From Cordylochernes scorpioides (taxonomy: Eukaryota > Arthropoda > Arachnida > Pseudoscorpiones > Chernetidae), in assembly GCA_030710605.1 (NCBI GenBank), contig CP092882.1:2871319-2935318 (forward strand): DNA of 64,000 nucleotides, given 5' to 3'. A model generated the notes under the pieces. It did not search any database. It was not told the origin of the DNA and saw only the letters and a program-made list of their open reading frames with translations. The position numbers and the translations under genes are program-made. Position 1 is the stretch's first letter, and every line of letters starts with the position of its first letter. Of this stretch, positions 2,577 through 59,906 are shown in pieces.

Positions 2577-3370
2577 GGTTTTTTCAATCTATAGATCAAC
2601 ACGCCTACGTGGTTGGCTTTTCTTGATTTACCAATAATATAGTAGAATACAACGGCACAACCGTAGATCTCTACGTCTAGTTGATTCCGATAGATGGCGC
2701 TCTCAGCCACCGAAAATTCCTAGTTGCGCGGTCAGGATTTATTCCACAAACCTCCACCAATCACTGAACCAGCATTGACCAATGGCATCCAAACGTTGAC
2801 CTATTCAACCATCAAGCGCCGAACAAGACCACACAGCCCACATAACCTCTCCACAATTAAGACAATACAGGAAAGTGCAATTTTGTGGCATTCCTATCAG
2901 AGCCCCAAATGATGAAGTGGTAGCGCCTATTTATTCATTCCTTCTTTTGTAAAAATGTTTTCAGCCTTCGGCCTTACGATGTTGTTGTTTTTCTTTCGGT
3001 GTTTAACTGGCTTCTCTCTTTTCTAGATAATTAAATTATTTTTCAAAAGAATTTTTTTAGAATCCATTGTTAAACATGACGTCATTCTTGCCAACAATCC
3101 CAGGTTCTGAACTTCTAACCCAACGTGACCCTGTGATCACCAAAGAGCTAGGTGACCGGGGGTGAGCTACCAAAGCCTGTTGTTTACACAGCGATCCTTT
3201 TAATATTATGTAAGTCCTAGCACATGCGACGACGGCACATTTCAAGAATAATTAAACCTAAAAATGTATCATGTAATTAAACTATGCTATAAAATCTACC
3301 AGGTTTCTCCTTCGCAGTAAGAAGTGTTGAATTTCGTAAAGATAGAGGCTGCCTGGCCGGCATTCCTAGT
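2577..3370. other. No gene recognised
   Basis: Contains a repeat-like GATAGATGGCGCTCTCAG stretch near 2690 (related to family M) and short open frames that look like chance. No domain, RNA gene or transposon end seen. Confidence 0.4.
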
Positions 3371-3598
3371 TCTTCAAATTAAAGTTACTTCGGCCAGTAA
3401 ATCTTTTTTATTATTGTCTCTACGTTTCGACAAAAATCTTTTGTTCTCGTCAGGAGCGAACAAAAACTAAAACATTTGGCAAAGCGTTGAAAATTATTCT
3501 AAGGCTGCAAGGGCGTTCTCAGGCGATATTTTTGTCGAAACGTCGAGATAATAGAATATTTACTGACCGAAGTATAATTAATTTGAAGAAGTGTTGAA
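3371..3598. repeat. Fold-back element, PLE-type family E
   Basis: Imperfect inverted arms (3371-3439 and 3526-3590) with TTTTTGTCGAAACG at the inner edge of each arm, followed outward by a T/A-rich segment and an ACTxxCCGAAGT element. A GACGAGAACAAAAG segment on the minus strand precedes CGAAAC, repeating the PLE 3'-end pattern. Confidence 0.65.
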
Positions 3599-3770
3599 TA
3601 GTTTAATTTCTTGTATATAGATGGCGTGTTTAGCTCACTGGCCTTTAGTGAAATGTTTCAACATATTGACATGGAACTCTACTGCCCTCAACGTGTCCAT
3701 TGAACCGTTAAATGTGTCTTACAACGAATTCCTTTTAAGTGTTGGGTATATAATAACCCAATATTAGATT

Positions 3771-4918: not shown

Positions 4919-5594
4919 GTTCTATTAGTGATAGGGGCACACAGTAGGAAACTGTTGTTTAAATTAGAATTAAAATGATTTCAAATTTATATTCCATAGA
5001 GGACGTGTTGTTGTCTTGTATTTAATTAATAAGTGATTAATTTATTCGAATATAGCGGGATTCCATTATTTACTTACATACGCCACACTTATTTACACAC
5101 ACCCCTATCTAATATGTTATATAAATAAATTAACTATTTGATATCTGGAAAAATAAATAACATTTAACAATATTTTTTAACCTAGCGTGTCACTCAGCGA
5201 GGAAAAAGGAAGCAGTTAAGAGCGGAAATCGGTGTGGATCCGTCCAAATATTGGCTGGCGCGGCGAAATTTCTGCGACCATCGTGGAAATTGAGTTTTCC
5301 CCTTTAATCCTTTTTCTGAGCTCCCTTTCTATAAGGAGATGTGCTGGAAGTTTTTATAAAGCGGTGATTGTGCTTACTCGGAGAACGGGAAATAAATTTA
5401 ATTTAAGAAAGAAAATAAAAGTGTGAAAAATTAAAAGATTGTTCCCAGGAATCTCTCCAGTGTCTGGCGGGCGGTGTGGAGGACGACAATCAACAAATTA
5501 TATATGTATTATATATGTGCATATTGGTCTATGTTATATATATGCTATCTCCATATATTTTTCATTATTAAATGTTATTTAAAACAATAATAAA
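4919..5594. other. No gene recognised
   Basis: AT-rich sequence with TTAATTAATAAGTGATTAAT-like low-complexity patches. The 64-codon open frame at 5232-5426 has no domain. Confidence 0.4.
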
Positions 5595-6695
5595 CAATAA
5601 GAGGAGCTTCTTGTGTAAATTTCTTTATTACCGCAAGCTTTCGAACAGAACGTTCTTCAACGGGCGTGGATAGTAAAAACGTACTAACATGCTATTAGAG
5701 GAGAAAAACGAATATATACACCAATAAATTTACATATTGAAGAGATAATAGCGTAAAAAGAGAATACATAAAAATATTTAAAATGAAATTTACATAATAC
5801 AAACGTGACGACTAAAAAATAAGCAATAAACTTGAATGAGACTAAAAACTAAGGTAAAATTATTATTAAAACGGCGACATCCCTACACCAAAAGAACAAA
5901 GAATAAAACAGTATATGGAAGTTAAAATCAACAAGACCAAGGCAGGGGAAAGGGAGGGTCCCACCCAGTGCTGCCACTATCTTTGAGATATAAGAGGGGG
6001 GGGGGGTGAAAGACAAGCTATTTATAAAGTATCTGGTAAATGTCTGGGAGGTCTATTTTACGGTTACAACTATTGTTTTGTGTGGAAATAATAGATTCTA
6101 GGCAGAGTCGGTGATGTTTGTTATGTATGTGCCGGTATTTAACTTGAGGATGGTCGAGATCAAAACTATGGCCTGTTTGTGCTATATGCGTGAAAATTAA
6201 GGATTTAGTATCTTTATTGCGGATGTTACGTCTGTGCTCTGAAATACGGATGCCAGTGGTTCTGCCTGTTTCTCCAACATAAGAAGTTGGGCAATCCAGG
6301 CACTGTATGGAATAAACTGCGCCGGTAGAGTTTATGGGTAGGGTGGGTTTATCAGATTTGGTGATGTGATGTCTAAGGATAGTGGCTAAGTTGGGGGGAC
6401 TATTGTAGAGAACTTTTATGCCGTATGGGCGTAGGACTCTGGAAATGGATACTGCGGCAGGGGAGAACGGAAGCCAACAAGTGGCCCTGTGAATTGTAGT
6501 GGTTCTGTGGACACGTGGATCAAAAGTATGTTTTTCTATGAAATCTATGGGATAACCAGCGGTTGTTAATAAGGAAAGGATTCTAGATCTTTCTATTGTT
6601 TTAAAAATGGGTAAGGAACAATGGGTAAAAATTCTTTTAGTTAAGGTCCTGACTGTATTAATTTTAAAGGAGATGGGACTATTGGAGGAGAAATG
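5595..6695 (-). mobile_element. Penelope-like element, 5'-truncated 3' portion, family D
   Basis: The minus strand carries the last 225 codons of a PLE protein (6018-6695) followed by about 420 bases of 3' sequence. That sequence ends in a CCGTTGAAGAACGTTCTG / TTCGAAAGC / AATAAAG module at 5620-5665. It is the only place in the window where that terminal module is physically joined to PLE coding sequence, so it anchors interpretation of the other fold-back repeats. The 5' part (reverse transcriptase) is missing; the break is near 6696, where an in-frame stop follows. Confidence 0.8.
6018..6695 (-). pseudogene. PLE polyprotein C-terminus with GIY-YIG endonuclease (5'-truncated)
   Basis: A continuous frame of 225 codons ending in TAG at 6018-6020, with no internal stop and no usable initiator because the element is truncated. 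Residues about 127-225 form a GIY-YIG nuclease domain. It has VYSI, then CLDC, then SYVGETGR with the conserved tyrosine and arginine, RISEHRR, a TGH motif and LESIIS carrying the expected catalytic glutamate. PLEs join this nuclease to a reverse transcriptase, and it is thought to nick the target for priming. The upstream 126 residues fit the RT-EN connector (YGIKV, arginine/leucine rich). It lacks an RT, so it cannot act alone. The clean frame suggests a fairly recent insertion. Absence of a normal start, not decay, is the main defect. Confidence 0.85.
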
Positions 6696-6737
6696 TTATT
6701 TATTGATAAATATTTATATTTGTGTGTTTCACCTTAT

Positions 6738-6860: not shown

Positions 6861-8104
6861 TAATAATCACTTATATGGACGATGTGATAAAGAAGTTCCA
6901 ATCTATCTCGACTCTAACTGGACATGTCGCTGATAGCTTCTGCTGTGGAACACCTAAATTCCATATAAAATAGCAGCTAGTGTTTACAGATAAACAAGTA
7001 TAAATAGAAAATTTCCCACCCACGAGTTAAAGAAAAACATGGAATTTGGATCCCATTAATTATAACATTTGTATGTAAAACGTCTAAAATTAGTTAGATG
7101 CGGACATTTTTAAAAGCTTTTATTTAACTTGCCCCCATCTCTGTCTGTCTGTCTGGATGTCTGTCGCCAAATCTTGTAATCAATTTTTAATATACTTATA
7201 GGGCACCTAGAAATATGAAATTTGGTACACATGTTCAAACCTGATGACAATGCTAGCTGACCAAATTTCAGACTTCTGGGTTGTCAGGTTGGCCAAGAAC
7301 GGACAAATTTCCAAATTTCCTTTCAACTTTTGTATATTTAATTTTAATATGCTTCCAGACCATATAGAATAATGAAACTCACAATACTCGCTCAGTCCAA
7401 TTAACAATGCAAGTGTACTAATTTTCAGACTTCTGGGTGGTCGGGAAGGCGGGAAATGCACCATTATCTATATTTCTTTTTTAATATTATCTGTTACATT
7501 ATATCTACTCGGAAAATGCTGGAGGTTGCGAAAGGATTTTTTTCAATAAATGTTCAAGACATGGAAGGAATTAGAAATCCAAATATTCAGATTCCTATCT
7601 AAAACGTCCTTGGAATTACAAGCAAATAAATGAGAAAAGCCAACAAATATATTAATTTTATCTGTTATAATTTAGTCATCTTATTCCAATATCATCACGC
7701 GCATATATTTATATTCATTATATATAGGTGTGTGTGTAACAATATACCACCATACATTTCACGACACCTTTTTAAATAGTTCCCCTTTTTCAATTAGTAT
7801 GTTGTTACTTTTAACTATTTAATTAATTGTTTAATTATAATTCAAATTTTATATGTACCAATTATCCCCTAACAATAATCCACTGGGTGTCTCTAACTTT
7901 GTAATATAATTCAATAAATTTAGGGTTCCCAAAAGCAAAGAGACGCAGTTCTGTTAGTAACGAATTTTGCTTACGTCACTTCCGACCTCCCACGAGGAAT
8001 TGACCAATCTGCTGCGAGCAGGCTTGCAGCTATTTAAGGCCAATGTCGTCTCAGTGATAAGGCTTTTTTTGGACTGGCATATATACGACTAAAAATAGCG
8101 TGAA
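6861..8104. other. Non-coding; two diverged tandem units at 7120-7465
   Basis: After a (GTCT)n run at about 7141, two related units of roughly 157 bases follow. Both contain CAGACTTCTGGGTKGTC (about 7267 and 7427), after phrases such as GAAATTTGGTACACATG. Such phrases are common in diverged invertebrate repeats, but I cannot assign a class. 7470-8104 is AT-rich with a GC-richer patch (7935-8045) of unknown nature. Confidence 0.45.
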
Positions 8105-8905
8105 TAATTAATTATAAAAACACTTTTAAAAAAAAAAGCTTTTATTTAAAATGCACTAAAAATACTATAAACTAAAGTGCCAGGAGAAAATGATTTTTTA
8201 TTAATCGACTACACGAGCTTTCGGGCAGTCACGCCCTTCAACTGGTAATGATACATGATGGCAATAGGCCTTAAATAGGATTCCGTTTTTAAAGAGATAT
8301 TTTTACATATGAGAAAAATAATATAGGACGGCTAATATTATTTTTCTCATATGTAAAAATATCTCTTTAAAAACGGAATCCTATTTAAGGCCTATTGCCA
8401 TCATGTATCATTACCAGTTGAAGGGCGTGACTGCCCGAAAGCTCGTGTAGTCGATTAATAAAAAATCATTTTCTCCTGGCACTTTAGTTTATGGTATTTA
8501 TATTCCAAGGAGAAAGTTTCTATGTTTAAATAAGTTGATGCACTAAAAATAACAAAATAAATATTTCTGAAGTATTGCTTTTTTTTTCTGAAGGTACCAT
8601 TTAACAAATAAAATAATAGACTTAGAAATAAAAGCGGTAGGGTACAATAATAATAAATTTGAGATCAATGTGATTTTATATGAAGCCAAATGATTAGCAA
8701 GTTATGCCTTTCATTAAATTTATACCTATTTGCTGCATAAATGATTATCATCCCCCACCGCTTTTATTTCTAAGTCTATTATTTTATTTGTTAAATGGTA
8801 CCTTCAGAAAAAAAAGCAATACTTCAGAAATATTTATTTTGTTATTTTTAGTGCATTTTAAATAAAAGCTTTTTTTAAAGTGTTTTTTATAATTAATTAT
8901 TTATT
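8105..8905. mobile_element. Fold-back/MITE element X, interrupted
   Basis: Left arm 8105-8164 plus 8552-8645, right arm 8753-8905 in reverse complement. The arms meet around a short centre (8646-8752). Outer ends both read ATAATTAATTATAAAAAACAC-like sequence. The left arm is split by another palindrome (8165-8537), while the right arm keeps the uninterrupted sequence across the same point. Non-coding; class unknown. Confidence 0.75.
8165..8537. mobile_element. Fold-back PLE-type element, family B, with 14-bp target duplication
   Basis: Arms of about 155 bases (8168-8324 and 8336-8492) are near-perfect inverted copies. Each ends outward with TTGAAGGGCGTGACTGCCC, GAAAGCTCG and TTAATAAAAAATC. 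ATGCACTAAAAATA occurs immediately on both sides (8151-8164 and 8538-8551). The interrupted host repeat retains a single copy in its other arm, so this is a genuine target-site duplication. About 45 extra bases follow the right arm (8493-8537), making the insertion asymmetric. Confidence 0.8.
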
Positions 8906-9153
8906 TTTATGTAATATATCCTGTACAGTCCTGTCAAGTTTCATGATATTCGACCAGTTCCTTTTGGGCGTAACCCTCTATCTCTACACCATGACTATTG
9001 TACTCTAAATCATAAATTAAATAAATCACTATATCAAATACACCAGTTTATATTCAACTACAATTTTCTCATTTAAGGAATTCGTTAACTTCACGATCCA
9101 GTTGATTTTGGAGAAGACACTGACGAAAGTTAATGTGAAGATACAAACAGTAT

Positions 9154-10055
9154 CATCATTATTCAGGTGAGATTCCTCAACCTCGGCGTTGTCAGACATT
9201 ACCTCGGTCCGTTCTCTGAGGATTTCCCTGGTCGAAATACTGCGGTTCCGCAGACTTGAAACATCGCCTTCAGAAGCCGTTTCCACCTTCAAGTGAATGT
9301 CCTCTTCCACGAGATACAAATATTTGAGAAGTTTTGAACAATTGGAATTATTTTGTAAAATTATTTTCCCAGTTTTCATCATTATTCAGGTGAGATTCCT
9401 CAACCTCGGCGTTGTCAGACATTACCTCGGTCCGTTCTCTGAGGATTTCCCTGGTCGAAATACTGCGGTTCCGCAGACTTGAAACATCGCCTTCAGAAGC
9501 CGTTTCCACCTTCAAGTGAATGTCCTCTTCCACGAGATACAAATATTTGAGAAGTTTTGAACAATTGGAATTATTTTTGTAAAATTATTTTCCCAGTTTT
9601 CATCATTATTCAGGTGAGATTTCCCAACCTCGGCGTTGTCAGACATTACCTCGGTCCGTTCTCTGAGGATTTCCCTGGTCGAAATACTGCGGCTCCGCAG
9701 ACTTGAAACATCGCCTTCAGAAGCCGTTTCCACCTTCAAGTGAATGTCCTCTTCCACGAGATACAAATATTTGAGAAGTTTTGAACAATTGGAATTATTT
9801 TTGTAAAATTATTTTCCCAGTTTTCATCATTATTCAGGTGAGATTCCTCAACCTCGCCGTTGTCAGACATTACCTCGGTCCGTTCTCTGAGGATTTCTCT
9901 GGTCGAAATACTGCGGTTCCGCAGACTTGAAACATCGCCTTCAGAAGCTGTTTCCACCTTCAAGTGAATGTCCTCTTCCACGAGATACAAATATTTTAGT
10001 AGTTTTACATAATTGGAATTACTTTTGTAAAAATATTTTCCCAGTTTTCATTTGT
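9154..10055 (-). repeat. 224-bp tandem repeat, four copies, exon-like on minus strand
   Basis: Units begin at 9154, 9378, 9601 and 9825 (each starts CATCATTATTCAGG). On the minus strand every unit has an open frame including YLVEEDIHLKVETASEGD, then SLRNRSISTREILRERTE and EVMSDNAEVEES. The frame is conserved in all four, but the period (224, once 223) is not a multiple of three, so units cannot be read through as one protein. I do not recognise the peptide. Either it is a duplicated acidic exon (a GAG|GTAATG donor-like site follows RERTE) or a minisatellite derived from one. Confidence 0.7.
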
Positions 10056-10149
10056 TTCAAATGTATATTTACCCGAATTCTCTCTTCCACAAAGTGAGTC
10101 ATAGTAATACGTGATATGTAATTGTCTATTCATGATGCAATTGTGGAAA

Positions 10150-10252
10150 AACTTTAAAATTACGAAATATTTCCTCACAATGAGTTTCTTTTTATTTTAA
10201 ATTGCTAGTTTTCAAGCTATAATGTGAGGAAATATTTTGTAATTTTAAATAG
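10150..10252. repeat. Short palindrome
   Basis: CTTTAAAATTACGAAATAT at about 10151 is matched by ATATTTTGTAATTTTAAAT at about 10231, with TTCCTCACA / TGTGAGGAA inside. Arms about 30 bases, spacer about 40. Probably a small MITE or hairpin remnant. Confidence 0.5.
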
Positions 10253-10564
10253 ATATGTAATTGTGGTGTATAGCATCAGGTATCTGCTAGGCCTACATGT
10301 AGTCAGAAACCTGAGAGACGGGTATCTGCTATTTAGAATGGTTCTGTCACAGAGAGTAATTAAAAGCCTAATGTGTCCTAATCTGTACAGTATGCAAATA
10401 TTCTTTCAATGCTACATGAGACGACGCTTTACCTGAATTCTTCCCTATTAAGTATGTGTAACGTGAAATGTCTTTGTACAGGTGGTAGGTTCAGTCAATA
10501 CATTCCCTGATATTGTCCATCCGTCGTGTTACCATCTTCCAGGTCTTCTCTATATATATATATA

Positions 10565-17610: not shown

Positions 17611-17616
17611 TATAAA

Positions 17617-17795
17617 TATAAAACATATGCATATATTGGATTTATAATTATTTTATTGTTCCAATATTTCGGGGGGCAACTCGCCTCTCTTTATCGAGAA
17701 TGTTTGTGATAAAGGGAGGCGAGTTGCCCATCGAAATATTGGAACAATAAAATAATTATAAATCCAATATATGCATATTTTGTAATACAATTTTA
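17617..17795. repeat. Fold-back element, PLE-type family A, short copy
   Basis: Arms 17627-17704 and 17706-17787 share CGAAATATTGGAACAATAAA with 207-837 but lack that copy's long inner portion. Abuts the Helitron 3' end at 17610. Confidence 0.8.
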
Positions 17796-18479
17796 ATTAT
17801 GGATTGCTCAATCTTCAAAATATATAAATATAGCTCATTTAAAAGCAATAACTTGTCTTGTAGCCGGGATTTCAGAGTGGGTTGTCCACTTCTGTAGGTC
17901 CTCTCGCGCCATCCATCCCCACCTACCATCTCATTGATGGTCCTCTCACTACCAGTCAGTCACTGACTGTGATAGTCCAACGGCTATCTCTCTGTTACTC
18001 TCCTATATTTAGGATGTTACATCTCTGAAGAGAGATTTTTATATCCCCCCGTCACTGGGACACAACATGTATACCCCGAGGTTCAGCCATTTCCGCAGAG
18101 CCATTTATAAGACTTGGGGAGGGAAATCGGAGCAAACTCCGTCTGATAACATTTCTACACGCTTGCCTTTGTCGACGTGTTTTGTCATTTACAATATCAG
18201 CGAGGCCGAAATATAAAATCAATGTTCATATTGAAGTTACAAAAGTTGAGCGGAACTCCTACCAACAAGTATAATTCTGTAAATTTGGAGTTTATAATGA
18301 TCGAAACGTGTTCCAGCCTGATGGAGATCTCCCTATAAGTCCCCGTTATACCCTAGGATGCCAGGGTCCAAAACATGTTGAATACTGTCCTCAAAGTCCA
18401 TAGTTTCGTTAAATACTAAGAATCCTTCCAAGGATACATAAGCAGAAGCGTCCAATACAATGATAGAGCGACCTGGTAG
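17796..18479. other. No gene recognised
   Basis: Starts with the family-A tail (ATTATGGATTGCTC at 17799). The remainder is unique-looking; no domain, RNA or transposon end was identified. Confidence 0.4.
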
Positions 18480-19274: not shown

Positions 19275-19884
19275 TTTAGCGCGCCAATTGCGATGTTATG
19301 TAAATTCTTTGAACACACACAATTTATTAAATTTGATATATTTACATGGGAATTTCTCATGGTTTAAATCTCAGTATATATATATATGTATGGTGTATTC
19401 ACCCGCTGAAACGTGATCAGCCAATCAACGAGCAATGCTTTTTTAGCTCAATGTTTGCATTGAAAAAGTAAGTAATACATTAAATATAAGATCGTTTGCT
19501 CGAATCTCTAATTATGTTACAAAACAAACGTAAATTTATGTATAAAAGAGAACAATCCCTCGAAATATTTTGATTAAAAAAAACGTTTTTCTTTCACAGA
19601 CCCAGGTACGTCTTTTTTACATGAATCTATATTCGATGGATTAACTCAAGCTAGATATATTTCGTCAATGTATGTACACGGAGAAACAGTCTTACAGACT
19701 TGATCTGGGCGTTTTTTAAATGGTTATTTTGTTTTGACATGGTTTAGGAAAAATAGTACAAATGTGATATTGTACTGGGATAAGGTTCATAAAATAAGAA
19801 AAAGACATCTCCTTATCGTGCAACTAAAAGTTTCTGAAGCTGATGAAAGCGATCACGCGGGTGAATACACCATACATATATATA

Positions 19885-22689: not shown

Positions 22690-22790
22690 TGTTAAAATTA
22701 AGAAAAGGGCATCTCCTGCTCGCACAAAGTTGCTGATGGTTTGCGTCGTCTATCGGCATAAATACCAACTAAACGTTGATAGAAACGATT
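22690..22790 (+). repeat. Dispersed repeat, family K
   Basis: AAATTAAGAAAAGGGCATCTC through TTGCTGATGGTTTGCG to CAACTAAACGTTGATAG. The palindromic version is at 58886-59063, and other partial copies are at 55690-55790, 61810-61900 and 62190-62270. A remnant on the other side of the PLE fragment (23820-23945) suggests the PLE inserted into one such repeat. Confidence 0.55.
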
Positions 22791-22817
22791 AAGGGGAAAG
22801 ACTCTTCTAGTAAGGTA

Positions 22818-23820
22818 TATCAATTAAGGAGGATCAGAAGATGAGTTTCTTTTATTGTATGAATGCAACCATAACCAAAAACTGGAGTTTTGGTCCCGAA
22901 AATATGCTTTCCCTCTCCAACGTAGGAACACCGACCATGAGGTCCCCAATGTTATCAACCTGTCTGACATAACCCTATCACCAGCTGAAAACAGACTATT
23001 ATCCAAAGGGCTAAAATACAGAATCCCAGCCAAAGTAGACACACCCCGACTCATTAGTGGAATAGAGGCCTCCATCAGAACCCTCTCCCACCAAGACCAA
23101 TGGACCATCAGGAATCAAGTAACCCGCACCCTCCAACGACCGCTACCTCCACTCTCCATGTCAAGATTAGAACACAAGATCATACGCAAACTGAAATCCC
23201 AACGATCCATTGTCATTACCCGATCAGACAAGGGATCTGATACGGTTATCATCAACCAAACCGAATACCATACAAAAATGACAGACATACTGAATGATAC
23301 AACCACTTTCACCCAAATCTCCACAGAAGAAAGCAAAGCAACAACCAAGAATTTCAGAGTTTCCCTCAACCGCATGAAACGCTCGGCCTCCATCACAATA
23401 GAAGATCACAAAAACTTCACCTCCAACATGGGAACTAATGCCTATATTTACGGCCTCCCCAAGATCCACAAACCATCCGTCCCCCTCCGTCCAGTCATCG
23501 CATACCACCTATCCCCTGCCTACCCCCTTGCCAAACACCTTACAAACCTTCTAACCCCTCTTTGGAATAATAACAGGAGAGCCTTCACGACACCCAATTC
23601 CACCAGTTTCATACAGGATATAACAAACCTGCTCCCCCCTCCAAACTCATCCATGTGCTCGTTCGACGTATCTTCCCTATTCCTCAGCCTTCCACACAGC
23701 CTCATGATAGATAACCTCCACCAATTCCTTTCATCCATCCACACAGATGCCACCATAGCTTTTTAATCGTAGCATTCATACAATAAAAGAAACTCATCTT
23801 CTGATCCTCCTTAATTGATA
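22818..23820 (+). mobile_element. Penelope-like RT fragment bounded by perfect 49-bp inverted repeat
   Basis: 22818-22866 and 23772-23820 are exact reverse complements (TATCAATTAAGGAGGATCAG at the outer ends). The left repeat is itself part of the PLE reading frame, so the right one is an inverted copy of PLE 5' coding sequence. The element is cut off within the reverse transcriptase. Inverted partial copies of this sort are known for PLEs. Confidence 0.8.
22827..23766 (+). pseudogene. Penelope-like reverse transcriptase, 5' half only
   Basis: About 312 codons open from just after a TAA at 22824-22826 to TAA at 23764-23766. Recognisable PLE landmarks in order: NVINLSDITLSPAENRLLSK (conserved N-terminal block), RSDKGSDTVIIN, YIYGLPKIHKP, LRPVIAYHLSPAYPLAKHL (RT finger motifs) and CSFDVSSLFLSLPH (RT motif A with its catalytic aspartate). 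Motif C (Y-x-DD), the thumb and any GIY-YIG nuclease are missing. The frame stops a few bases before the inverted copy of its own 5' end begins. It cannot make an active enzyme. It is probably a different PLE family from the 5595-6695 fragment, but the two do not overlap, so this cannot be tested here. Confidence 0.88.
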
Positions 23821-25377
23821 AACGTTGATAACCAACATTTTATATCCAGGATTCTGTAAATGCATGGTTAAGAAATCAGCGCTTAGCTCGCTGGAATTTA
23901 TTCCGATAGATGGCGCAAGCTATCAATAACCTTCAGTTTCACACGACAAGGAGATATTTTTCACAATTTTACCCCGTTTTTTAGTTTTTAATAGAGCTTC
24001 TTTCATTAAAGATAGAAGCTTTATTTCTATATTTTAAAAATTGTATAAAAGTGTTTTGCGCCATCACACACACACACACACACAAATTTCCTATCTATTT
24101 GAAAGTATACTCTTTGTTGAATCTATAAAATTTGGTTTCAAAATTTAAGGAAAAAATAACGGTTCGCTTTTTCACACCCTCCGGGTACAATAAGTTTCCA
24201 TGCGGCAACTAGGACCTGGACTCCGAACTTGTACAACCCCACCAGTGAGCACAGGTAACCAAACGGGGCTCTAGCACCTTCCAAGTGCATAGGACTACAC
24301 CTGGATATATATAAACATGAAGTATAACGGTATCTACCATGATGTGTATAAACACAACTTATAAACCACGTCTACGAGGCGCCGACACGACGTAGGCCAT
24401 ATGTAAATACTGCTTAGCAAAACTCACTTTTTCACCAATTAATCAACAACGCACCAAATCCCCAATTAATTAATTCTAAGCGATGTTTTAATACGCCTAT
24501 ATCGAGGGGATTAACTAAATTAAATTGGACAGTTAATTAGAACGGTGTCTGTTTTATCCCCGCACTTAACAATGGAAAGCTCGCTACTGTGTGCTTGTAT
24601 CCGTAGATCAATAGTGAGACTTGAAGTTCTTTCGCCCAGAAGTTAGCAGCTTTTCTTGAGAATTCTTTTCTGTAACTTGTCTGTTCTATCGAGGTCAAGT
24701 ATTGCTGCGGCAGCTGGAAGGAGGAGAGGGTATGATGCTGCCTAGGATGAATGGAGAAGATTGAAAGATATATGTAAATATACAGAGTATGTAGAATATT
24801 TGGACCATTCTTGTAATATTTGTACCTTGTTGGGTGCCAATCTAAATATGGTATAAAATTTCATTAATATAATATATTGATCACCTCAGCTTATCTAGGC
24901 CGTATTTGAAGGTTTAACTTGGCCCGTTTTAATGGTGGAAATTAGTAGGTTATAATCTAGGATAAATTTTTCGTCGAAAATGTTGAATATGGGAAATATA
25001 TTAAAGTAACTATTTATACCTAATTGAATGTCTCTGAGAATCCTTTTTAAGAAAATAGAACCGCAGATTCCACAGCAATGTCTGAAATAATCCCGCGGTA
25101 GTAGCTGCTATCTGTGAAAAGATTCTAGGATATAACGCTTGAGCGCTCCTTAGAAAAAGGGATTATCCCAATCCCATCCGGAGATTTCTCTCACCAAAAA
25201 AAAAGATCTTTGAATAGATTTGTTGAATTTTCGGAGTTCAGTTTCTTTGCACAGGTAAGAATGTCACATATGTAAACCTTCCCATAACATATTTACATAG
25301 CATTCCAAACCTCGCTGTACGGTACATCCTTCTTCATGATTAAGATAAATATTTATTTGACAAGGACAAAATGTGAC
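23821..25377. other. Mostly unassigned; (CA)n and SINE fragment
   Basis: A repeat remnant of family K occupies 23821-23945, a (CA)n microsatellite 24064-24085, and a diverged SINE fragment 24200-24310 (CAACCCCACCAGTGAGCAC and AACCAAACGGGGCTCTAG). The rest shows no gene or transposon signature. Confidence 0.5.
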
Positions 25378-25445
25378 GCCGAAACGTTTTATCACAAGTA
25401 ATTACAGAGGCTTTCGAACATGTCCTTCTTCAGGTTTCTTATATA

Positions 25446-26934
25446 TACTGGTGTCCAAAAATTAAGAAACTTTTGTTTTTTAATGATATGTTTTAAAATA
25501 TACAACGCTAAAAGCTAAAAAGTAATTTAATTAGGTATTTTAAGTCGTAGAATTTATTTATCGCAACCATTCGATTCGGTAAAATTGAAAATATGCAAAT
25601 TTTTGTTTGTCTTTATAAGTGTGCTATTTGGCGTGTCGTTTACCTCATCTAAGAATTGTCCAATTATAATTTTATTTAATCCTTAGTTAATTATGAGTTT
25701 ACGAAAAATTTTAGCAGATGATTTAAAATGGAGAGCTGTTGGAAGAATGGAGGCAGGGCAATCACAAGTTTAAGTAGCAAAATGGTTAAATGTGAATAAA
25801 TCTGTGGTCAGCAAAATATGGAAACAGTTCATTGAGACAGGAACCATCAAAAGAAAAGAAGGTTCTGGTAGAAAAAGAAAAACAGCTACCTCTGAAGACC
25901 GTTATCTGGTCGTAACTGCCAAGCGCCATAGGGAGATGGCAGCTATTCAACTCTCTAATGAACTCTCAAGTGCTACTGGAACGAGAATTTCAAGACAAAC
26001 TGTTTACCGAAGGCTTCACGAAGGTGCTCTTTATGCAAGACGACCAATGATCTGTATCCCTTTAACCTCTGCTCACAGGAGAGCCCGCTTGAATTGGTGC
26101 TTGGAACATCACGCCTGGACTTATGATCAGTGGGCTAATGTTCTGTTCAGTGACGAGTCAAAATTTAGTTTAAACACAGATTATCGACGAGTTTTCATCT
26201 GGAGGGAGCCTGGAACCCGCTATCATCCCAGTGAAATCAGGGAAATAGACAGTTTTAGAGGGGGCAGTCTCTTAGTCTGGGCTGGCATCAGTTCTAGCAG
26301 TCGCACACCCCTCCACATTTTTTCTGGGGGCACTTTAACTGCCCAAAGGTACAGGGACGAGATCCTTGAGCTCTATCTAAGATCTTATAGAGATCAAATT
26401 GGTCACAATTTAATTTTAATGGAAGATACTGCTCGTCCGCATAGGGCTAGGCTAGTCAATAAATATCTCCAGAGTGAGAATATTCGAAGGATGGATTGGC
26501 CAGCCAGATCTCCGGACCTGAATCCAATAGAGCATGTGTGGGATGCTCTAGGGAGGCGTATTGGAGCTCGTCACCCCTCTCCCCAAACCCTCGTTGAGCT
26601 AAGAACTGCTCTATTGGAGGAGTGGGATTTACTACCCCTGGACCTCCTCCAAAGCCTGGTAAACAGTATGAGGGCTCGCTGTGAGACCTTGATAGCTGTT
26701 AGAGGTGATCATACTCCCTATTGATATCTTATTTCTTTAAGATCTGGAACCTTAGCTTTGGGTATGTTGGTAATAATTTGCATATTTCATAATTTCAAAT
26801 ATATTATTTTTCACATAGCTAGTCAAATTCTCCATAGTTTAAACTATTTGTATACTAAATTTTATATTTGTTAATAAATTAGCTTTTGAGAAATTTCAAT
26901 ATTGGTTAAGTTTCTTATTTTTTGGACACCAGTG
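25446..26934 (+). mobile_element. Tc1-like transposon (DD34E)
   Basis: Ends TACTGGTGTCCAAAAATTAA and (reverse complement at right) CACTGGTGTCCAAAAAATAA, with TA on both sides (25444-25445, 26935-26936). 1489 bp. Encodes a transposase interrupted once. Confidence 0.92.
25693..26724 (+). pseudogene. Tc1 transposase with one in-frame stop
   Basis: Read from the ATG at 25693 (MSLRKILADDLKWRAVGRM) to TGA at 26722-26724, 343 residues, the normal Tc1 length. A TAA at 25771-25773 after GQSQV is the only interruption; downstream the frame is open for about 316 codons. Domains: paired-like helix-turn-helix (residues about 10-110, including VNKSVVSKIWKQF and a GSGRKRKT basic patch), then the DDE core. 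Core residues are D in LFSDESKFSL, D in LMEDTARPHR and E in SPDLNPIEHVW, with 34 residues between the last two. All three catalytic residues are intact, so a single change separates this copy from a complete frame. Translation from a downstream codon would lose part of the DNA-binding domain. Confidence 0.93.
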
Positions 26935-26985
26935 TAGTTGAAGAAGAGCATGCCCGAAAGTTTATGCAATTCCTTTTAGTACAAA

Positions 26986-27486
26986 CAATTGCGGCGGTCG
27001 CCTTTACTCTTTTTATCACAAATCATTCGGTTCACATTCCAAGACTTGTACATTACACAATTGTAGAAGAACTCGACCCAACAAAGATGCTATTAGACAA
27101 GTATCTACGTAGATATTGTCCTGTAGTCAGGTGTGATTATATAGCAAAACGTCTGAGAAAGAACTTATATTTCTGAAAAAGTGAATTTTGTTTGCGATTA
27201 AGAACCGTCGAACCATATTGTAGGAAATGGTATTTTATGTTGGCACGGTGGTATTTGGCTAAACGTTTGTAAATTTGTCGTCTGAGAATACTGTATAGCA
27301 GAATACAACGGGTCTATATGTAAATACATTCACGAACATATGTAAACCAGAAATATTCTAGCTGACCTGTGTAAGTTTTATCTGGTTTTCTCTATGTGTG
27401 TAGCTATATACTCAGTATAACACGTGTAGTCATATTTTACTTCGACGCAGACGGGGATTTTGATAAATACCACTTAATAAAAACTA
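26986..27486. other. No gene recognised
   Basis: Moderately AT-rich sequence; open frames are short and lack motifs. Nothing recognised. Confidence 0.4.
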
Positions 27487-28734: not shown

Positions 28735-29049
28735 TAATATTTACAATAGTTGTGACATTGTGGTAAATAAACCAGACTGAAATGTTTGCTAACGGTTACT
28801 GCTGAGGGAAGTTTGCCTCCCGCGGGAATATTGGGCTCGGCTCCGTGTTTTCCCAGAAATATTTGAATTGAATCACGGACTCGTTTATCGAGGAGCGTTT
28901 CTGAACCGTGTGTGTGTTTCCCCGAGGTAAAAATGTACACAAATTTGGCGAGTCGGTGTTTTAACAACAAAAAGGAACTTAATATCAATACGATGCGCGC
29001 CATCTGTTGTAAGAATTTTTAACTATTTCTGACGCGTATGTTTATTTTT
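28735..29049. other. No gene recognised
   Basis: Unique-looking sequence; the minus-strand open frame here partly reads a poly-A tract of the MITE and is not credible. Confidence 0.4.
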
Positions 29050-29220
29050 TAAATAAAACAACTTTCTTCTGTCCTTACTGCAGTGGTAAAAATAATGGAA
29101 GGGCCTGGCTCATCAGTGGTGAACCCTCCCAGAGGTTTTTCCACTGATGAGCTAGGCTCTCCCATTATTTTATCATTGCAGTAAAGGCAGTAGAGAAAAT
29201 TGTTTTATATTAAAAAGAAA
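29050..29220. repeat. Paired hammerhead-core repeats forming a palindrome
   Basis: Left half on the minus strand (CTCATCAGTGGTGAACCCTC at about 29109), right half on the plus strand (CCACTGATGAGCTAGGCTC at about 29144). Flanks TGCAGTGGTAAAAATAATGG and CCATTATTTTATCATTGCAG mirror each other. Arms about 70 bp. Confidence 0.65.
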
Positions 29221-29604
29221 AATACGCGTCAAAAATAGTTAATTTTTCATTAAAAACTTGATCAAAGAACTACTTTGCAACACAAGCACAAGGATTCTAA
29301 ATGATAGAATTAAGAGAATAACGCGACAATTTCAGTAAGAATTTAGTCTAAGGCGGGGACCTGTCAAGCCCATTGATTGGCTCAGTGATGTCTGGGTGAG
29401 CCGTCACAACGGCTGCTCCAGATCCCATGAATAAAAGATGAGGACGTCGTCAACCTGGAGGACTTAGCCGCGCGCCGGTAATAAAGGAAGGAAAGGACTT
29501 AAAAGAATTATTCATTAGATCCATCTCCCGCGGAGGACAAATTGATGTCTGGGTTTTTACATGGAAGCGTTTAATGATGCGGCGGTTAATTGGCTGGAGT
29601 GGGG
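29221..29604. other. No gene recognised
   Basis: Unique-looking sequence between repeats; contains no open frame or RNA gene that I can support. Confidence 0.4.
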
Positions 29605-37050: not shown

Positions 37051-37065
37051 AAATATAAACATTAT

Positions 37066-37275
37066 GACAGAAGGAATCGCGGGATATCATTGTGTTGGAA
37101 GAGACCAAAGGTAGACGCGACGTGTTTCTTTATTTAAAAGGCTTCGGACAATGACGTCCTTCAACAGGCGAATATTCTCCTATTTGAGTAATGACTTGTT
37201 GAAGGACGTCCGAAAGCCCGTAAGAAACTCGTGGCGTCTACCTTTGGTCTCTTCCAACAACATTGTAAGATTTGA
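37066..37275. repeat. Fold-back element, PLE-type family G
   Basis: Arms of about 80 bp: TTGGAAGAGACCAAAGGTAG at 37098 and CTACCTTTGGTCTCTTCCAA at 37239. On the inner side CTTCGGACAATGACGTCC / GGACGTCCGAAAGCCC and CTTCAACA / TGTTGAAG. Same TGAAG + CGAAAG layout as the GIY-YIG bearing PLE. Confidence 0.75.
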
Positions 37276-37441
37276 TTTCCTTGAAAAGATTCACTGATAC
37301 GCCGGAAATAAATAATTCACAAGGTTGTAGTGGATATATCTAATCGTTCTTAGAAATCCAAACTGCATGGAAAAATACTGTTTTTAAAAATAAAATACAT
37401 CGTAGGAACAAATTGTAGACTCGATTGAAAAACCCTGTACG

Positions 37442-37579
37442 ATTTATAAATGAATAAAACAAAGCTTCAAGGGCTGCGTATCTTTTATTAGAACGAATAT
37501 AATACGTTATACGTTAATTATATTCGTTCTAATAAAAGATACGCAGCCCTTGAAGCTTTGTTTTATTCATTTATAAATT
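37442..37579. repeat. Near-perfect palindrome, PLE-type family C
   Basis: Arms of about 61 bp (TTTATAAATGAATAAAACAA at the left, TTGTTTTATTCATTTATAAA at the right) separated by about 15 bases. The sequence GATACGCAGCCCTTGA links it to the single-arm copy at 2480-2576. It lies 135 bases upstream of the KCNE-like start codon. Confidence 0.85.
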
Positions 37580-37713
37580 GTAGACTATTTGCCCGTATAG
37601 TCCTCAAAAGTCGAACTCGTCTTGATGAACATCAACACCAATACATGTCGATGCCTGTCACTGTTTAGTTGTTCACTGAGTGTGTGGCTGCAGCGGGCGA
37701 CCATGAGCGGCCC

Positions 37714-38106
37714 ATGTCCGGCCCCGGCAGCCGCGGTGATGCCCTCCACTGCCACAACCTCTCCCGCATCCTGGACCTGCTCCAGCAGCAGATGATGCCC
37801 AACACCACCGCGGACGACTCAGCAGCGGAGGACGACGACCAGAAGAACGCCGTCATCTACATCGTCGTGGTGCTTCTCTTCTACTCCTTCGGCATCGGCG
37901 TCATGATGATCAAGTACATGCGGAAGGAGGAAAAGGAGCAGGAGGAGTGCAAGATGTACCGGCGGTATATCAACTCGGCCCACGAGCAGTACCTGCACTC
38001 CACCAACCGCGCGCGGCTCGCCAACCGCCTTGCGCTGCAGGCTCTCAACACCGTCAACGCCATTCCCCAGACCACGCAGCTCGGCAGCAAGGTCACCTTC
38101 GTGTGA
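37714..38106 (+). CDS. KCNE/MinK-like single-pass membrane protein
   Basis: 130 residues from ATG at 37714 to TGA at 38104-38106. It is GC-rich with strong C/G third-position bias, unlike everything around it, so I take it as a host exon. N-terminal ectodomain residues 1-44 have possible N-glycosylation sites (NLS at 15, NTT at 30) and an acidic run (EDDD). One transmembrane helix spans residues about 46-66 (NAVIYIVVVLLFYSFGIGVM). The cytosolic side follows with KYMRKEEKEQEE and a basic C-terminus. Length, topology and the aligned FY...GxMxxKYMR juxtamembrane pattern match KCNE proteins, which modulate voltage-gated potassium channels at the plasma membrane. A GTGTGGCTGCAG acceptor-like site at 37693 suggests a 5' UTR exon upstream; a second ATG at 37702 is out of frame. 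Family assignment is inference. Confidence 0.7.
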   Translation: MSGPGSRGDALHCHNLSRILDLLQQQMMPNTTADDSAAEDDDQKNAVIYIVVVLLFYSFGIGVMMIKYMRKEEKEQEECKMYRRYINSAHEQYLHSTNRARLANRLALQALNTVNAIPQTTQLGSKVTFV

Positions 38107-41100
38107 CACGCACTTCCTATATTTCCCTTATCTATTGAACCAAATATCCGCTTATTTAACCCATCAGGGTTATGTTCTTTTGCACTAGTGAAGAGCGAAA
38201 ACCGCTCCCATTTGGTCAAAAGTAAATAAATATATTCATAGATTTAACCCCGACTCAATAAACACCGCCAAGATAATTATAATTAGAATAATTCCAGAAA
38301 TGAGATGGAAGGCTCTTCAAATAATTTCCAATCAAGGAAATTAAGATATGAATACTTTAACTTCCATTTAGGTTTGTGACGCCTTTAAATGCTTTTTTTA
38401 ATGGAATTTTCAATCATACAGAAATCTGAACTCCTTAGAGCATATTTTCAATTTGCATAGCAACTTATTACCTTTCTTTCCCACTTCAGCACTTCGGCTT
38501 TATGTACCGCCTTTTTATAAAAGAGACAAAAAGGTGCTATTTATTACGTATTAATATATGTTTTATAAATGTTTCTAGTGAACACACACACTATATAAAA
38601 TCTGGATATGTTGATCATATTACAGTAGCATTATATATCTCTACATCCTTCAAACTCCATTCAAAACACTCTTTTATATCTTATATAATATGATCCATAG
38701 AAAAAATGCACATGTTTTAAAATAATTCCTCTTGAATACACTTTCTCATTTTTATAACCTTGCTTACGTTATTTCCTCAAATGTGAATATAAGCAAGAGT
38801 TTATAAACCCACGTTTTATTTATTAGCTATATATAATAGTATATTATTATAGAAGGATATGTAGAAAGGTATATAAAAGTGTGTAAAAGGTATATATTGA
38901 ACAAAAATACCACATAATATTTCGATTACCACAACGTATTGCATATACGTTGTTATACTTTGACAAAGGTTGGCGTTCAGATAACCGAAATATTGAATTC
39001 ATTTATTATATTCAATATATGCCTTTAATTATGGATTGTTCCAGTTTTCAAAATAAATATGTTTCTCAAACCTATTCGAAGATCTTGGTAGTTCCATCAC
39101 GCTCAATGAATCAAAGTTTTTCTAAAAAGAACTGTTTGATATATATTTCCCCCTCAAATATTATATTTAAATTATATATACTGGAAGATCATTTATGATG
39201 CGTGCCTAAATATAAATTGCCCTCTATACATTAAACAATTCAAACAACATTTTAGCAAAACATTTACTCACAATTATAAAATTTTGAAAATCAGTCAATT
39301 CAATTTTTAAAAACAATGTACACATATATTAGAGAAATGGAGCACAGAATTCATTAATTTTATCAGAAAATAGATATATAATATTTCTTATTGTTTTAAA
39401 TTTATATATATATTTTTTTTCAAATAACAAATTTTTTAATGCTTTTTACCTGTATATTATTTTTGAAATGTAAACAAAAATTCAATTATGTAAAAAAAAA
39501 ATTAAAAACGCTTATTATTATATATCTTAAAGATCTAAATGGTTTAGAGATTAAATTTAAAATATATTTCGACACATTTAGAGATAATTTAAAATGAAAC
39601 CTTTTGACCAAAATAAATACACGATATTATAATTAAACTCTTCTAATTTTGCCAATAATTACTTATTTGTCATAATAAATTACAGGTTGAATATTTTTAA
39701 AGATGGAAATATATATATATATAATTTATCAAAAGATATTAATTTAAGAATATGATCTTTTGCAAAAATTTAAACGCGTCTGTGTATTTGTCTCTTGTAT
39801 AATATTGTGTGTAAATAGCCATTCACTTTATACCAATTTTAATGTTGGGAATAGGTGTAGTCATGATTATTAATTAACCTATTTGTATTATTATAAATAA
39901 TATTTCAAGGATTTTAAAATTTTAACAAATTTATACAAACTATATTAAATTTGAATTTGTTTATATTTCTTAAAATAGCATAGTACAATAATGCATACCT
40001 TTTTGAAATTGTAATTTTAATGTTTTATATTTATTGATTTGATAGAAGTAAAAAGAATTGTTGTGAATCAATAGCTATATTTGGAACCAAAAGATTATGG
40101 AAACAAATCAGCTTAGAAAAAGTCAAATATGTTTTTCACAATGGAGTCCGAGTATCGTTTTACAAAATTCAGCGTTTTATTTGAAAAAAAAAGCGTTTTA
40201 AATCGATTAATTTGAATATAATATTTGATATGTATTTAAAATATATAATTTTTTAACATATATATATCAAATTAATAAAATATAACTTTTCGGTGCTGTT
40301 AATAATAATAATAATAATCTTGCTTATTCTTCAGGCACACAAACAAAAATAATGTTTTTATTTTTAATTTTTTGTTGGAATTTTTAAAATAAATTTAAAA
40401 TTTATCAAAAGAATAGAATTTTTGCGCGTAATATATTATTTAATCCTATCTCTCAATCTGAATTAATATTAAAATATGACACAAATTTCAGAAATATTTT
40501 GTAAAAATCTATACACTCCTTTTTGTAAGAAATTATATTTATTTTTAAATATTTGTTTATAAATAATAAAAGACGAATGGGAGTCTTTAAATTTTTAAAA
40601 TTAGTTCTTAAATTTATGAGACATTTAGGGAACAAAATATATTAAGCGTTAACCAATATAGCTTAACCGTCTAAAAACATTTTTAAATATACAGAAATCT
40701 TGTATTTTAACTCTACTATGTATACATATAGAATGCTCACACATAATAAAGTATGTTTTAAGATAAATGAATTTTTAATTATATATACTCTCTCTCTCTT
40801 TTATTTGTAATAACATATATCGGTATTTAAAGATTTGGGGGACCACACAAGTTTACAACAATAAGTTAATTATTATCGAATGTAATGTACTTGTATGGTA
40901 GACATTATTGATACATAGAATAGTTTAAAACAAAATAAGTATGTGTGAGTAACATTGGTAATTGTTAATATCAAAATAATTCCGTAGCTCTAAATATCAA
41001 AATCTTTGAAATATTTATATCTTTTGGAATATTTATATTCTATTTCAAAATAATGGATAAAAATAAGATGAAAATGTTTTTGATATGTAGAATTTCATTT

Positions 41101-42150
41101 TGTATATAATGCACTTATATTGGCTATTGGAGATAAAACAATATATATAAACGAATATTTAAAAGCTTTGAATATATTTTATTATTTCTGAAACATGTCA
41201 TATTTCAAATATTTATGTATATTATTTTATATCATTTTTTTTTCTATTATATCAAATATTTCTCTAGCTGGTCGCACACTTTTTATACAACTATATTAAA
41301 AACTTATTATGATGATATTTTCAAAACTATATAGAAATTTAGTTTTAAACGCTCATATATATTTATTGGATATATCTTTAAATATTAATAATAATAATAG
41401 CTTAAACTCATTCTATCTTAATTAAGAAAATACACATGCTTAGAATAATTAATACTATAGAAAATATATAAAGTTTCTCTAATTTATATAGAATATTATG
41501 TTGTGTGCATCCTACAGAACTTTAGCTAAGCCTTGAGGGAGTCATCAACTAGGCAGCACCTCATTAAAGTACGTTAATGAGTCCCAAAGGAACGTTATAC
41601 ATTGGGAATTAATCCGTTGCACCGCCCTCTATTATCTGAATATTAAACTAATTTTTATTCAAATGCTAAATAATTGTTGACTCGTCATTTATATGTGACG
41701 TATATAAATAAGGATTTTTTTGTATTTTTAATTTTCTGATACTTTAAAATATTAAATTTATAATGGCTATATTATACTAAGATTAGTTTAAATGGAATAA
41801 TGATTGCATTAATAAAAAAGCATACGAATGATTTCGACAAAAATTTTCTCACAAGCAAGTTCCAGAACAAATAATATTATATCTTTTTTTGACCACCTTT
41901 TTTGCATATATTCTCTATTTAGATAAACGTATGTATTTTACCATCTCTTTTAAAATACATTTTCTAGAGAAATTTCTATATAGAAAGAATTTCTATACCC
42001 CGTAGCTATTACTGTCTTACCTAAATTTATAAATGGCCACGTGCCTTTGTATCATAAACTAAATAAATGGTTGGGCAACGCTGTATAAAATAAAGGTTCT
42101 GTAAATATTTTATATTTGTTATGCGCACTGTGTAATAAAGTCTCGCTGAA
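38107..42150 (+). other. AT-rich single-copy stretch, candidate long 3' UTR
   Basis: About 4 kb directly 3' of the KCNE-like stop, very AT-rich, with no recognisable transposon apart from a half copy of fold-back family A at 38925-39060. No long open frame. AATAAA occurs at 38257-38262 (proximal) and at 42134-42139, 18 bases before the satellite begins. TGTAAATA, the Pumilio-type site, occurs near 39810 and 42103. A long neuronal-type 3' UTR is a reasonable reading, but transcription is not shown. Confidence 0.4.
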
Positions 42151-42156
42151 CTTTTA

Positions 42157-48100: not shown

Positions 48101-49047
48101 TTAGCTTTCTTGGAGTTTACAGCACACACAGTACTGTACGTGGTGGTTAGCAGCTTTCTTGGAGTTTACAGCACACACAGTACTGTACGTGGTGGTTAGC
48201 AGCTTTCTTGGAGTTTACAGCACACACAGTACTGTACGTGGTGGTTAGCTTTCTTGGAGTTTACAGCACACACAGTACTGTACGTGGTGGTTAGCAGCTT
48301 TCTTGGAGTTTACAGCACACACAGTACTGTACGTGGTGGTTAGCAGCTTTCTTGGAGTTTACAGCACACACAGTACTGTACGTGGTGGTTAGCTTTCTTG
48401 GAGTTCACAGCACACACAGTACTGTACGTGGTGGTTAGCTTTCTTGGAGTTTACAGCACACACAGTACTGTACGTGGTGGTTAGCTTTCTTGGAGTTTAC
48501 AGCACACACAGTACTGTACGTGGTGGTTAGCTTTCTTGGAGTTTACAGCACACACAGTACTGTACGTGGTGGTTAGCTTTCTTGGAGTTTACAGCACACA
48601 CAGTACTGTACGTGGTGGTTAGCTTTCTTGGAGTTTACAGCACACACAGTACTGTACGTGGTGGTTAGCAGCTTTCTTGGAGTTTACAGCACACACAGTA
48701 CTGTACGTGGTGGTTAGCTTTCTTGGAGTTTACAGCACACACAGTACTGTACGTGGTGGTTAGCTTTCTTGGAGTTTACAGCACACACAGTACTGTACGT
48801 GGTGGTTAGCTTTCTTGGAGTTTACAGCACACACAGTACTGTACGTGGTGGTTAGCAGCTTTCTTGGAGTTTACAGCACACACAGTACTGTACGTGGTGG
48901 TTAGCAGCTTTCTTGGAGTTTACAGCACACACAGTACTGTACGTGGTGGTTAGCTTTCTTGGAGTTTACAGCACACACAGTACTGTACGTGGTGGTTAGC
49001 AGCTTTCTTGGAGTTTACAGCACACACAGTACTGTACGTGGTGGTTA
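42157..49047. repeat. 46/49-bp satellite array with 2268-bp higher-order repeat
   Basis: About 146 tandem copies of a 46-bp monomer (GCTTTCTTGGAGTTTACAGC, ACACACAGTACTGTACGTGG, TGGTTA). Many copies carry three extra bases at the junction (TTAGCAGCTTTC, 49 bp). Sequence variants are rare: CCTCAC insertion near 42496, GTGTAC at 43298 and 43535, one extra C at 44464, TTCAC at 46136-46140 and 48404-48408. The order of 46- and 49-bp units repeats with a 2268-bp period in the right half. The monomer contains the palindrome ACAGTACTGT. Open frames across it (for example 44422-44604) are satellite artefacts. Confidence 0.97.
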
Positions 49048-57832: not shown

Positions 57833-57951
57833 TATATAATTTTTATAAGAAACTTTTTCCTGGATGATTTTTTTTGCAACACTCTCATGTTGATATATCC
57901 CACCTTCTGAAGTTTATGGACGTGGCTACACACAAAATCTATTAAATGAGG

Positions 57952-58090
57952 ACAAGAAACACAAGGTAATAAGACAAAATCCAAATAAATAGTGTGCGAT
58001 ATTTTGGTAACAGTGTTGTTACCATTATCAGACAAAAGTACTGAATGTTGTATTTATTTGGATTTGGTCTTATTACCTTGTGTTTCTGGT
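57952..58090. repeat. PLE-type fold-back, family F, copy 1
   Basis: CACAAGGTAATAAGACAAAA / TTTGGTCTTATTACCTTGTG, with TGTGCGATATTTTGGTAACA on the inside. The right arm is partly replaced by AGTACTGAATGTTG. Confidence 0.7.
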
Positions 58091-58200: not shown

Positions 58201-58246
58201 AAAAATTGTGTTTAAGGGTTTTATTTTTATTTATATATATATATAT

Positions 58247-59875: not shown

Positions 59876-59906
59876 AATCTATAATCCAAATTATTATATA
59901 TTTTTT

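Follow-up and report, generated by a model that had tools for sequence, protein, structure and literature searches.

Fold-back repeats in a 64,000-nt window of animal-like DNA as probable ORF-less inverted dimers of Penelope-like element ends

Endonuclease-bearing Penelopes of Adineta vaga and other animals are bounded by inverted pseudo-LTRs (pLTRs), one of which may carry a tail of ~31 bp; they occupy AT-rich targets, show palindromes at their junctions and, in the cases given, are flanked by target site duplications (TSDs) of 8-10 bp, some copies being devoid of a TSD (PMC3846280). Self-priming on an antisense template has been proposed for the A. vaga elements and the junction palindromes have been read in this way, the template question behind the origin of the inverted ends being left open in that account (PMC3846280). 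In PAc, a Poseidon element of Anolis carolinensis that contains a hammerhead, both target strands are cut and extended and the tail represents the stretch between two reverse transcription start sites, and the later steps of integration of Penelope-like elements (PLEs) are described as awaiting validation (PMC11167929). Minimal hammerheads are present in thousands of copies, most of them dispersed in non-coding regions of animal genomes, and the role of the ribozyme in PLEs has been called a mystery (PMC7761336). Metazoan retrozymes, which are non-autonomous, carry type I hammerheads and are possibly moved by PLEs, form direct tandem repeats of ~170-400 nt (PMC7229834). Inverted pLTRs, tails, TSDs and hammerheads are all, accordingly, known features. 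Hammerheads that lack a helix III loop and reside in pLTRs were reportedly described by Lunse and colleagues in 2017.

Here, we analysed a window of 64,000 nt of animal-like DNA (38% G+C) that is rich in fold-back repeats, and we consider it probable that these repeats are ORF-less insertions of the pLTR ends of several PLE families, joined head-to-head in what would be the order known for endonuclease-bearing PLEs. The inserts share with the elements described in PMC3846280 the head-to-head inverted pLTRs, the optional tail on one inverted end and the AT-rich targets, but the Penelopes covered there enclose an ORF or captured DNA, whereas the inserts in the window are mostly ORF-less and, where their TSDs are secure, have duplications of 10-14 bp. 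They differ also from metazoan retrozymes, which are direct tandem repeats rather than inverted dimers (PMC7229834). Three aspects, namely ORF-less miniature PLE dimers from many families, a strict one-tail pattern and centres located on a ribozyme stem, were not found in the literature searched, which included few subscription papers, Repbase being outside its scope.

Each of 15 loci was compared by BLAST with its own reverse complement, and 13 proved to hold inverted repeats, at 205-835, 3370-3590, 8157-8502, 17619-17784, 25396-26975, 37093-37259 and 37438-37582, and at six further positions, 57952-58090, 58251-58368, 58618-58725, 59441-59536, 62913-62990 and 63625-63734. The claim of the preliminary description that the loci it listed are usually palindromic holds for these 13 of the 15 tested but not for 2480-2576 (insert B), a single copy in one orientation for which the self reverse-complement BLAST returned no inverted partner; the coding fragment P (5595-6695), for which no palindrome had been claimed, was not palindromic in the same search, and locus 25378-26985 (insert F) holds a Tc1 element. 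In the latter, PLE-like arms that are 70% alike over 74 bases enclose the Tc1, with its transposase ORF at 25774-26724 (Pfam DDE_3 and HTH_Tnp_Tc3_2) and terminal repeats reaching from ~25448 to 26932, which are also included in the self-match of the locus (25396-26975). In the families bearing the hammerhead-type motif described below, from which the orientation of the dimers was read where it is present, the sense strand points outward, with the 3' ends outside and the 5' sides meeting at the centre. No ORF of the element was found inside the palindromes, and the ORF-less dimers C, D, E, H, N, S and T measure 126-373 bp.

The first of the inserts, A (199-872), is an inverted dimer of the family that also includes E, with a tail of ~29 nt on the right arm and a possible 8-bp TSD, ATACATTT (199-206 and 865-872), a length of at least 8 bp being reached also in 3.2% of controls. 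Insert B (2234-2601, + strand), a single-orientation copy with a hammerhead-type motif, is flanked by a 14-bp TSD, TCTATAGATCAACA (2234-2247 and 2588-2601), with which in view its bounds were chosen, and has a 3' end in common with H, the arms of which (37422-37582) match it at 88% identity. Inverted dimer C (3319-3599) has a 14-bp TSD, AAGAAGTGTTGAAT, a tail of 42 nt on the left arm and a CTGACGA..GAAACGTA core on the - strand at 3425-3453. Dimer D (8151-8551), with a 14-bp TSD, ATGCACTAAAAATA, two hammerhead-type motifs and a tail of 45 nt on the right arm, is almost perfectly symmetric at its centre; it landed inside an older large palindrome, which occupies 8081-8919 (8538-8856 plus outer arms). 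Dimer E (17611-17832) carries a 10-bp TSD, TATAAATATA, and a tail of 41 nt on its right, shorter arm, and F (25387-27021), the dimer split by Tc1, an exact 11-bp TSD, TTTTATCACAA, and a tail of 38 nt on the right arm. Two weak matches to the 3' end plus tail of family A/E, at 39001-39064 (73%) and 41298-41380 (65%), are perhaps old single copies of this end.

Dimer G (37058-37266) contains two hammerhead-type motifs and its TSD is ambiguous, with two candidates of 6 bp, and H (37410-37586), of family B/H, lacks the motif and displays a 12-bp TSD, AAATTGTAGACT, and a tail of 24 nt on the left arm; an ORF for a KCNE-like potassium channel, perhaps a real host gene, lies ~100 bp from H (37669-38106; Pfam ISK_Channel, 1.7e-6). 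The family at 57-63 kb comprises I (57941-58099), with unequal arms, a possible 7-bp TSD, ATTAAAT, and no visible tail; J (58245-58415), centred on stem II of the motif, with a possible 7-bp TSD and 40 nt of tail-like sequence on the right arm; K (58575-58760, outer bounds approximate), which has the best core, CTGATGAT..GAAACGTC at 58681-58714, tail-like sequence on its left, shorter arm and no exact TSD; and L (59434-59543), for which an exact TSD was not found. Both M (62886-63006) and N (63579-63745) are centred on stem II, M with an 11-bp TSD only if one mismatch is allowed and N with a 13-bp TSD, GTAGAAATATCCT, and a tail of 35 nt on the left arm. Long inverted pairs at 60126-61761 (154 and 134 nt, 93-97%) surround a repeated 'CCCCTTGTGTAAAGATTACACGAATTCCATGAG' unit, with no TSD of at least 8 bp found.

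Target duplications were defined by a rule under which one copy directly abuts an end of the palindrome while its partner lies 0-50 nt past the opposite end. By this rule, six of the 13 palindromes (C, D, E, F, H and N) are flanked by exact duplications of 10-14 bp, compared with 0.25% of 4000 masked random intervals; for the other seven a secure TSD was not found, the candidates measuring 8 bp in A, 7 bp in I and J and 6 bp in G, with none in K and L and an inexact one in M. The controls were masked throughout, since in unmasked sequence tandem repeats raise the rate of duplications of at least 11 bp to 4-5%. The TSDs of B, P and a second coding fragment, Q, are 14, 12 and 12 bp long, and in the same search duplications of at least 12 bp occurred in 0.6% of 1200 masked controls. 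When the 45 inverted pairs with spans of at most 2.6 kb (BLAST E 0.001) were all scanned for TSDs, two dimers emerged that are absent from the preliminary list: S (10113-10264), with a 13-bp TSD, GATATGTAATTGT, and a tail of 27 nt on the left arm, and T (58885-59101), of a separate family, with a 10-bp TSD, ATGTGGAAAT, and a tail of ~34 nt on the right arm. A 224-bp tandem repeat in four copies (9153-10051), with partly open frames, ends ~60 bp before S, and relatives of family T are scattered over the window (19763-19837, 22695-22781, 23898-23969, 61823-61893 and 62193-62281). Two more pairs from the scan, with duplications of 15 and 11 bp, lie in the 58-59 kb cluster and were set aside as direct repeats of the cluster's family. 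With either side permitted a tail of 0-60 nt, a TSD of at least 10 bp was present in 9 of the 16 palindromic inserts, against 2.6% of 1500 controls, and none of at least 9 bp was found for the remaining seven. Altogether, 11 inserts (B, C, D, E, F, H, N, P, Q, S and T) have duplications of 10-14 bp, which are 69-100% A+T, have no sequence in common and are not TA or TTAA. The proposal that distinct PLE families leave inverted copies of their ends is supported by these AT-rich TSDs, found in 6 of the 13 palindromes, and by the presence in four families of the motif that terminates the coding fragment P.

All nine palindromic inserts with a TSD of at least 10 bp are one-tailed, with 24-45 extra nucleotides on one side and 0-2 on the other; S and T entered this set through the TSD scan and bounds in the set were trimmed by hand, the first six (C, D, E, F, H and N) being the cleaner set, in which the count is six of six. 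Were the start chosen independently on each side, about half of the inserts would be expected to be symmetric. The arms within a palindrome are often unequal in length. In E, the tail-less arm extends its match to the reference arm of A 18 nt further upstream than the tailed one does. In K, when compared against I, it is the tailed arm that ends early, ~24 positions before its partner. Slighter hints in J, M and N (loop orientation or ~10 nt) lie in the same direction; what we call tails in J, K and M are so called because they resemble the tail of N (M by eye), at inserts whose TSDs are not secure. C is the opposite case, with the tail on the longer arm. We did not retain a general rule of tails on shorter arms, since it applies to five of six assessable inserts, with C contrary and J, M and N resting on few bases.

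These asymmetries bear on a competitor of a two-sided origin, self-priming, in which one first-strand cDNA would bend back at a hairpin and serve along its length as its own template, so that a palindrome results. The palindrome centres of J, M and N fall on a hairpin, the self-complementary stem II, and the arms of D and H are nearly identical up to the centre, the symmetry of D being expected from a snap-back as well. However, a fold-back copy cannot bear a tail that its template arm lacks, and its stopping each time at precisely the start of the tail, as nine one-tailed inserts of nine would demand, is not expected. The tail on the shorter arm of E, impossible by snap-back of one cDNA, favours two reverse transcription starts, one per nick, and K, provided that its tail has been correctly identified, argues likewise for two RNA-templated starts, J, M and N pointing the same way less surely; the tail on the longer arm of C does not speak against self-priming. 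The main way around the argument from E and K is a later loss of bases at the centre. On balance, we regard self-priming as somewhat unlikely.

We favour, with moderate confidence in the scheme as a whole, a mechanism with two nicks and two starts of reverse transcription. A PLE protein would nick both target strands 10-14 bp apart, and at each nick a separate reverse transcription of an element RNA would be primed, one cDNA being initiated at a distal start, and so bearing the tail, and the other at a proximal start, without a tail. The two cDNAs would then meet by their 5' sides and become linked, sometimes through base pairing of the self-complementary stem II, and filling in of the stagger would generate the target duplication. 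The location of the centres of J, M and N on stem II suggests that two cDNA ends may have annealed there before being joined. In L1 twin priming, priming from both target nicks also yields an inverted junction, but one RNA is copied from two places, whereas in the window two copies of the same end appear to be joined. The PAc data were obtained in vitro and reveal no difference between the strands in start site, whereas start use in the window looks asymmetric; the lack of a strand difference in PAc (PMC11167929) is not what one would have expected from a strict one-tail rule. As far as its treatment of integration extends, PMC11167929 does not derive an inverted dimer from two-strand extension. 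More tentatively, PLE integration may be inherently two-sided, one cDNA being primed at each nick of a staggered cut and each start site being used once, such that every insertion would be born as a one-tailed head-to-head dimer; stem II could splint the two cDNAs, and RNA of pLTR length would give rise to an ORF-less, MITE-like class of elements accounting for many orphan minimal hammerheads of animal genomes.

Two coding fragments would connect the palindromes to Penelope. P (5570-6702, - strand) is a 5'-truncated PLE-like fragment with a GIY-YIG-like ORF at 6018-6695, a 3' end that contains a hammerhead-type motif at 5631-5666 and a 12-bp TSD, AAATGTTATTTA (5570-5581 and 6691-6702). The ORF contains YVGETGR and matches GIY-YIG with an E-value of 0.0022, its Pfam score (17.5 bits for the whole ORF, 18.7 for the C-terminal part) being below the curated cut-off of 22.6. 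The junction of GIY-YIG coding sequence to the 3' end, asserted in the preliminary description, remains likely, albeit with a score under the Pfam threshold. Q (22770-23830, + strand) includes a reverse transcriptase (RT)-like ORF fragment between inverted 61-nt ends, a tail of ~34 nt at the left end and a 12-bp TSD, TAAACGTTGATA; apparently, it is an internally deleted element of PLE-type layout, and by eye it sits inside one old copy of family T. By its motifs, the ORF is a candidate PLE RT; Pfam returned no RT match, only a sub-threshold one to Radical_SAM_N (E 0.006). Relatives of the GIY-YIG and RT ORFs were not found in viral contigs, nor those of the RT ORF in genome contigs or phages, nor did three exact DNA patterns retrieve any; a search of plasmids with the RT ORF gave one match, to a radical SAM protein (E 0.03), which we take as chance, and a search of solved structures gave one unrelated match at 0.51 and otherwise none. 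AlphaFold models built without an alignment had pLDDT values of 39 and 35 and were unusable for a fold search.

Q, the sole RT-like copy in the window, has the anatomy of the ORF-less palindromes, namely inverted ends, one tail and a 12-bp TSD, and its resemblance to an internally deleted element of the same layout lends some credence to the possibility that the palindromes are degenerate full-length PLEs, with an inverted pLTR followed by a pLTR-ORF-pLTR unit, that lost the ORF by later deletion. We consider this unlikely, because the centres of D, H, J and N, which belong to unrelated families, are nearly perfect and provide no space for ORF remnants, and repeated precise deletions are less likely. 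The arms of Q match no palindrome family within the window and, beyond the motif, the coding fragments were not found to have arms in common with these families; RT-bearing copies with the palindrome arms, proposed as a check of the PLE assignment, did not materialize in the window. Direct pLTR pairs were absent among the window matches, such tandem pLTRs being published for full copies and not expected in truncated ones.

What the ends of the different families have in common appears to be a minimal type I hammerhead-like motif, and the likeness is real at the level of a structured motif. The preliminary description had proposed a general order of TGAAG, CGAAA and an AATAAA-like run; the literal order with AATAAA occurs at only three sites (5624-5659, 8197-8240 and 8419-8462; mean 0.25 and maximum 2 in 60 simulated windows), and TGAAG..CGAAA alone, with seven occurrences against a simulated mean of 4.0 and maximum of 13, is not above chance. 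We rejected the literal letter pattern as the defining feature, the hammerhead-type motif, not an AATAAA run, being what is common. The statement that the families are unlike in sequence and alike in layout survives for the structured motif, with eight clear matches to the covariance model R1 described below, but not for the literal letters. The motif consists of CUGANGA (or CUGUNGA), with or without one extra base, followed by stem II, GAAA, a loopless stem III of 2 bp and stem I; variants of stem III (GAAACGU, GAAAGCU and GAAAUAU) place C-G, G-C and U-A at the same position. K and C keep the hammerhead core, the 57952-63735 family having the form CTGATGAT..GAAACGTC. In B, D, G and P the core deviates by a change of A6 to U and one extra base before stem II; the motifs of A and I are decayed, as is the form seen in family A/E (207 and 17617). 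No motif was seen in S and T or, by eye, in the palindrome H at 37442. The motif shares with the minimal hammerheads of pLTRs the absence of a helix III loop, and differs in that several core variants occur here, with activity putative.

The alternative that this motif is a chance or unrelated hairpin, with no relation to hammerheads, has in its favour the absence of matches to the Rfam hammerhead families at E<=10 (in the whole window and two 101-nt stretches) and the core deviations in B, D, G and P. However, across nine motifs stem I is paired at 22 of 27 positions, stem III at 9 of 9 and stem II at 35 of 36, whereas exchange of partners between motifs gave 17.0, 4.1 and 23.5 (P 0.002, 0.001 and 0.00005, respectively), the registers having been set by hand and K and I belonging to one family. 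A rule-based hammerhead descriptor identified five sites (2500, 8222, 8437, 58707 and 5642), all within the studied loci, whereas 60 simulated windows yielded 0.2 sites on average and never more than 2; in a tandem-repeat scan of the window, none of the five was within a tandem array. The covariance model R1, trained on six sequences from B, D, F and G without P and with the structure supplied by the analyst, matches the end of P at E=9e-6, the next non-member being at 0.49; eight of its matches stand apart, namely those to the six sequences used in training, to the second arm of D and to P, which was outside the training set and has the motif of the four families within it. A hairpin unconnected to hammerheads is in our judgement distinctly unlikely. 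A minimal type I hammerhead-like motif with putative cleavage activity would thus be present, whole or as remnants, in most families. Sub-threshold matches to Rfam miRNA models are taken as reflecting the palindromes; one such match falls on an imperfect palindrome at 29019-29242 (227 nt, 81%), for which no TSD of at least 8 bp was found.

Tc1/mariner-type transposase ORFs, which account for five of the eight ORFs scanned with Pfam, are abundant in the window; some of the inverted repeats outside the studied set are Tc1/mariner ends, and a satellite array of 6.9 kb with a 46-bp unit occupies 42154-49047. An origin of the palindromes as MITEs or foldback DNA transposons, with mobilization by a Tc1/mariner or other transposase, is highly improbable despite this abundance and despite palindromic MITEs being common in animals, in view of the secure TSDs of 10-14 bp with variable sequence, the extra tail at one terminus, the lack of a Tc1/mariner terminus match when the arms were compared with the window (E 0.001) and the occurrence of the same motif at the end of the GIY-YIG-like fragment P. 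The TA or TTAA duplications and symmetric terminal inverted repeats typical of the class were not found in the inserts, and of the DNA-transposon termini, named beforehand with such duplications as the signs of a different origin, those of Tc1/mariner were likewise not matched by the arms within the window. The inserts are MITE-like, as had been suggested, in that they are without an ORF, but nothing further of that kind is needed, their anatomy being already published in the account of PMC3846280.

Inverted dimers of PLE ends offer an explanation for dispersed minimal hammerheads and could explain most copies located outside recognized PLEs. The one-tail rule, together with the tails on shorter arms, would allow ordinary genome sequence to be used for testing self-priming against two-sided priming. 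If this reading is true, some palindromic repeats that might be annotated as MITEs are the ends of retroelements.
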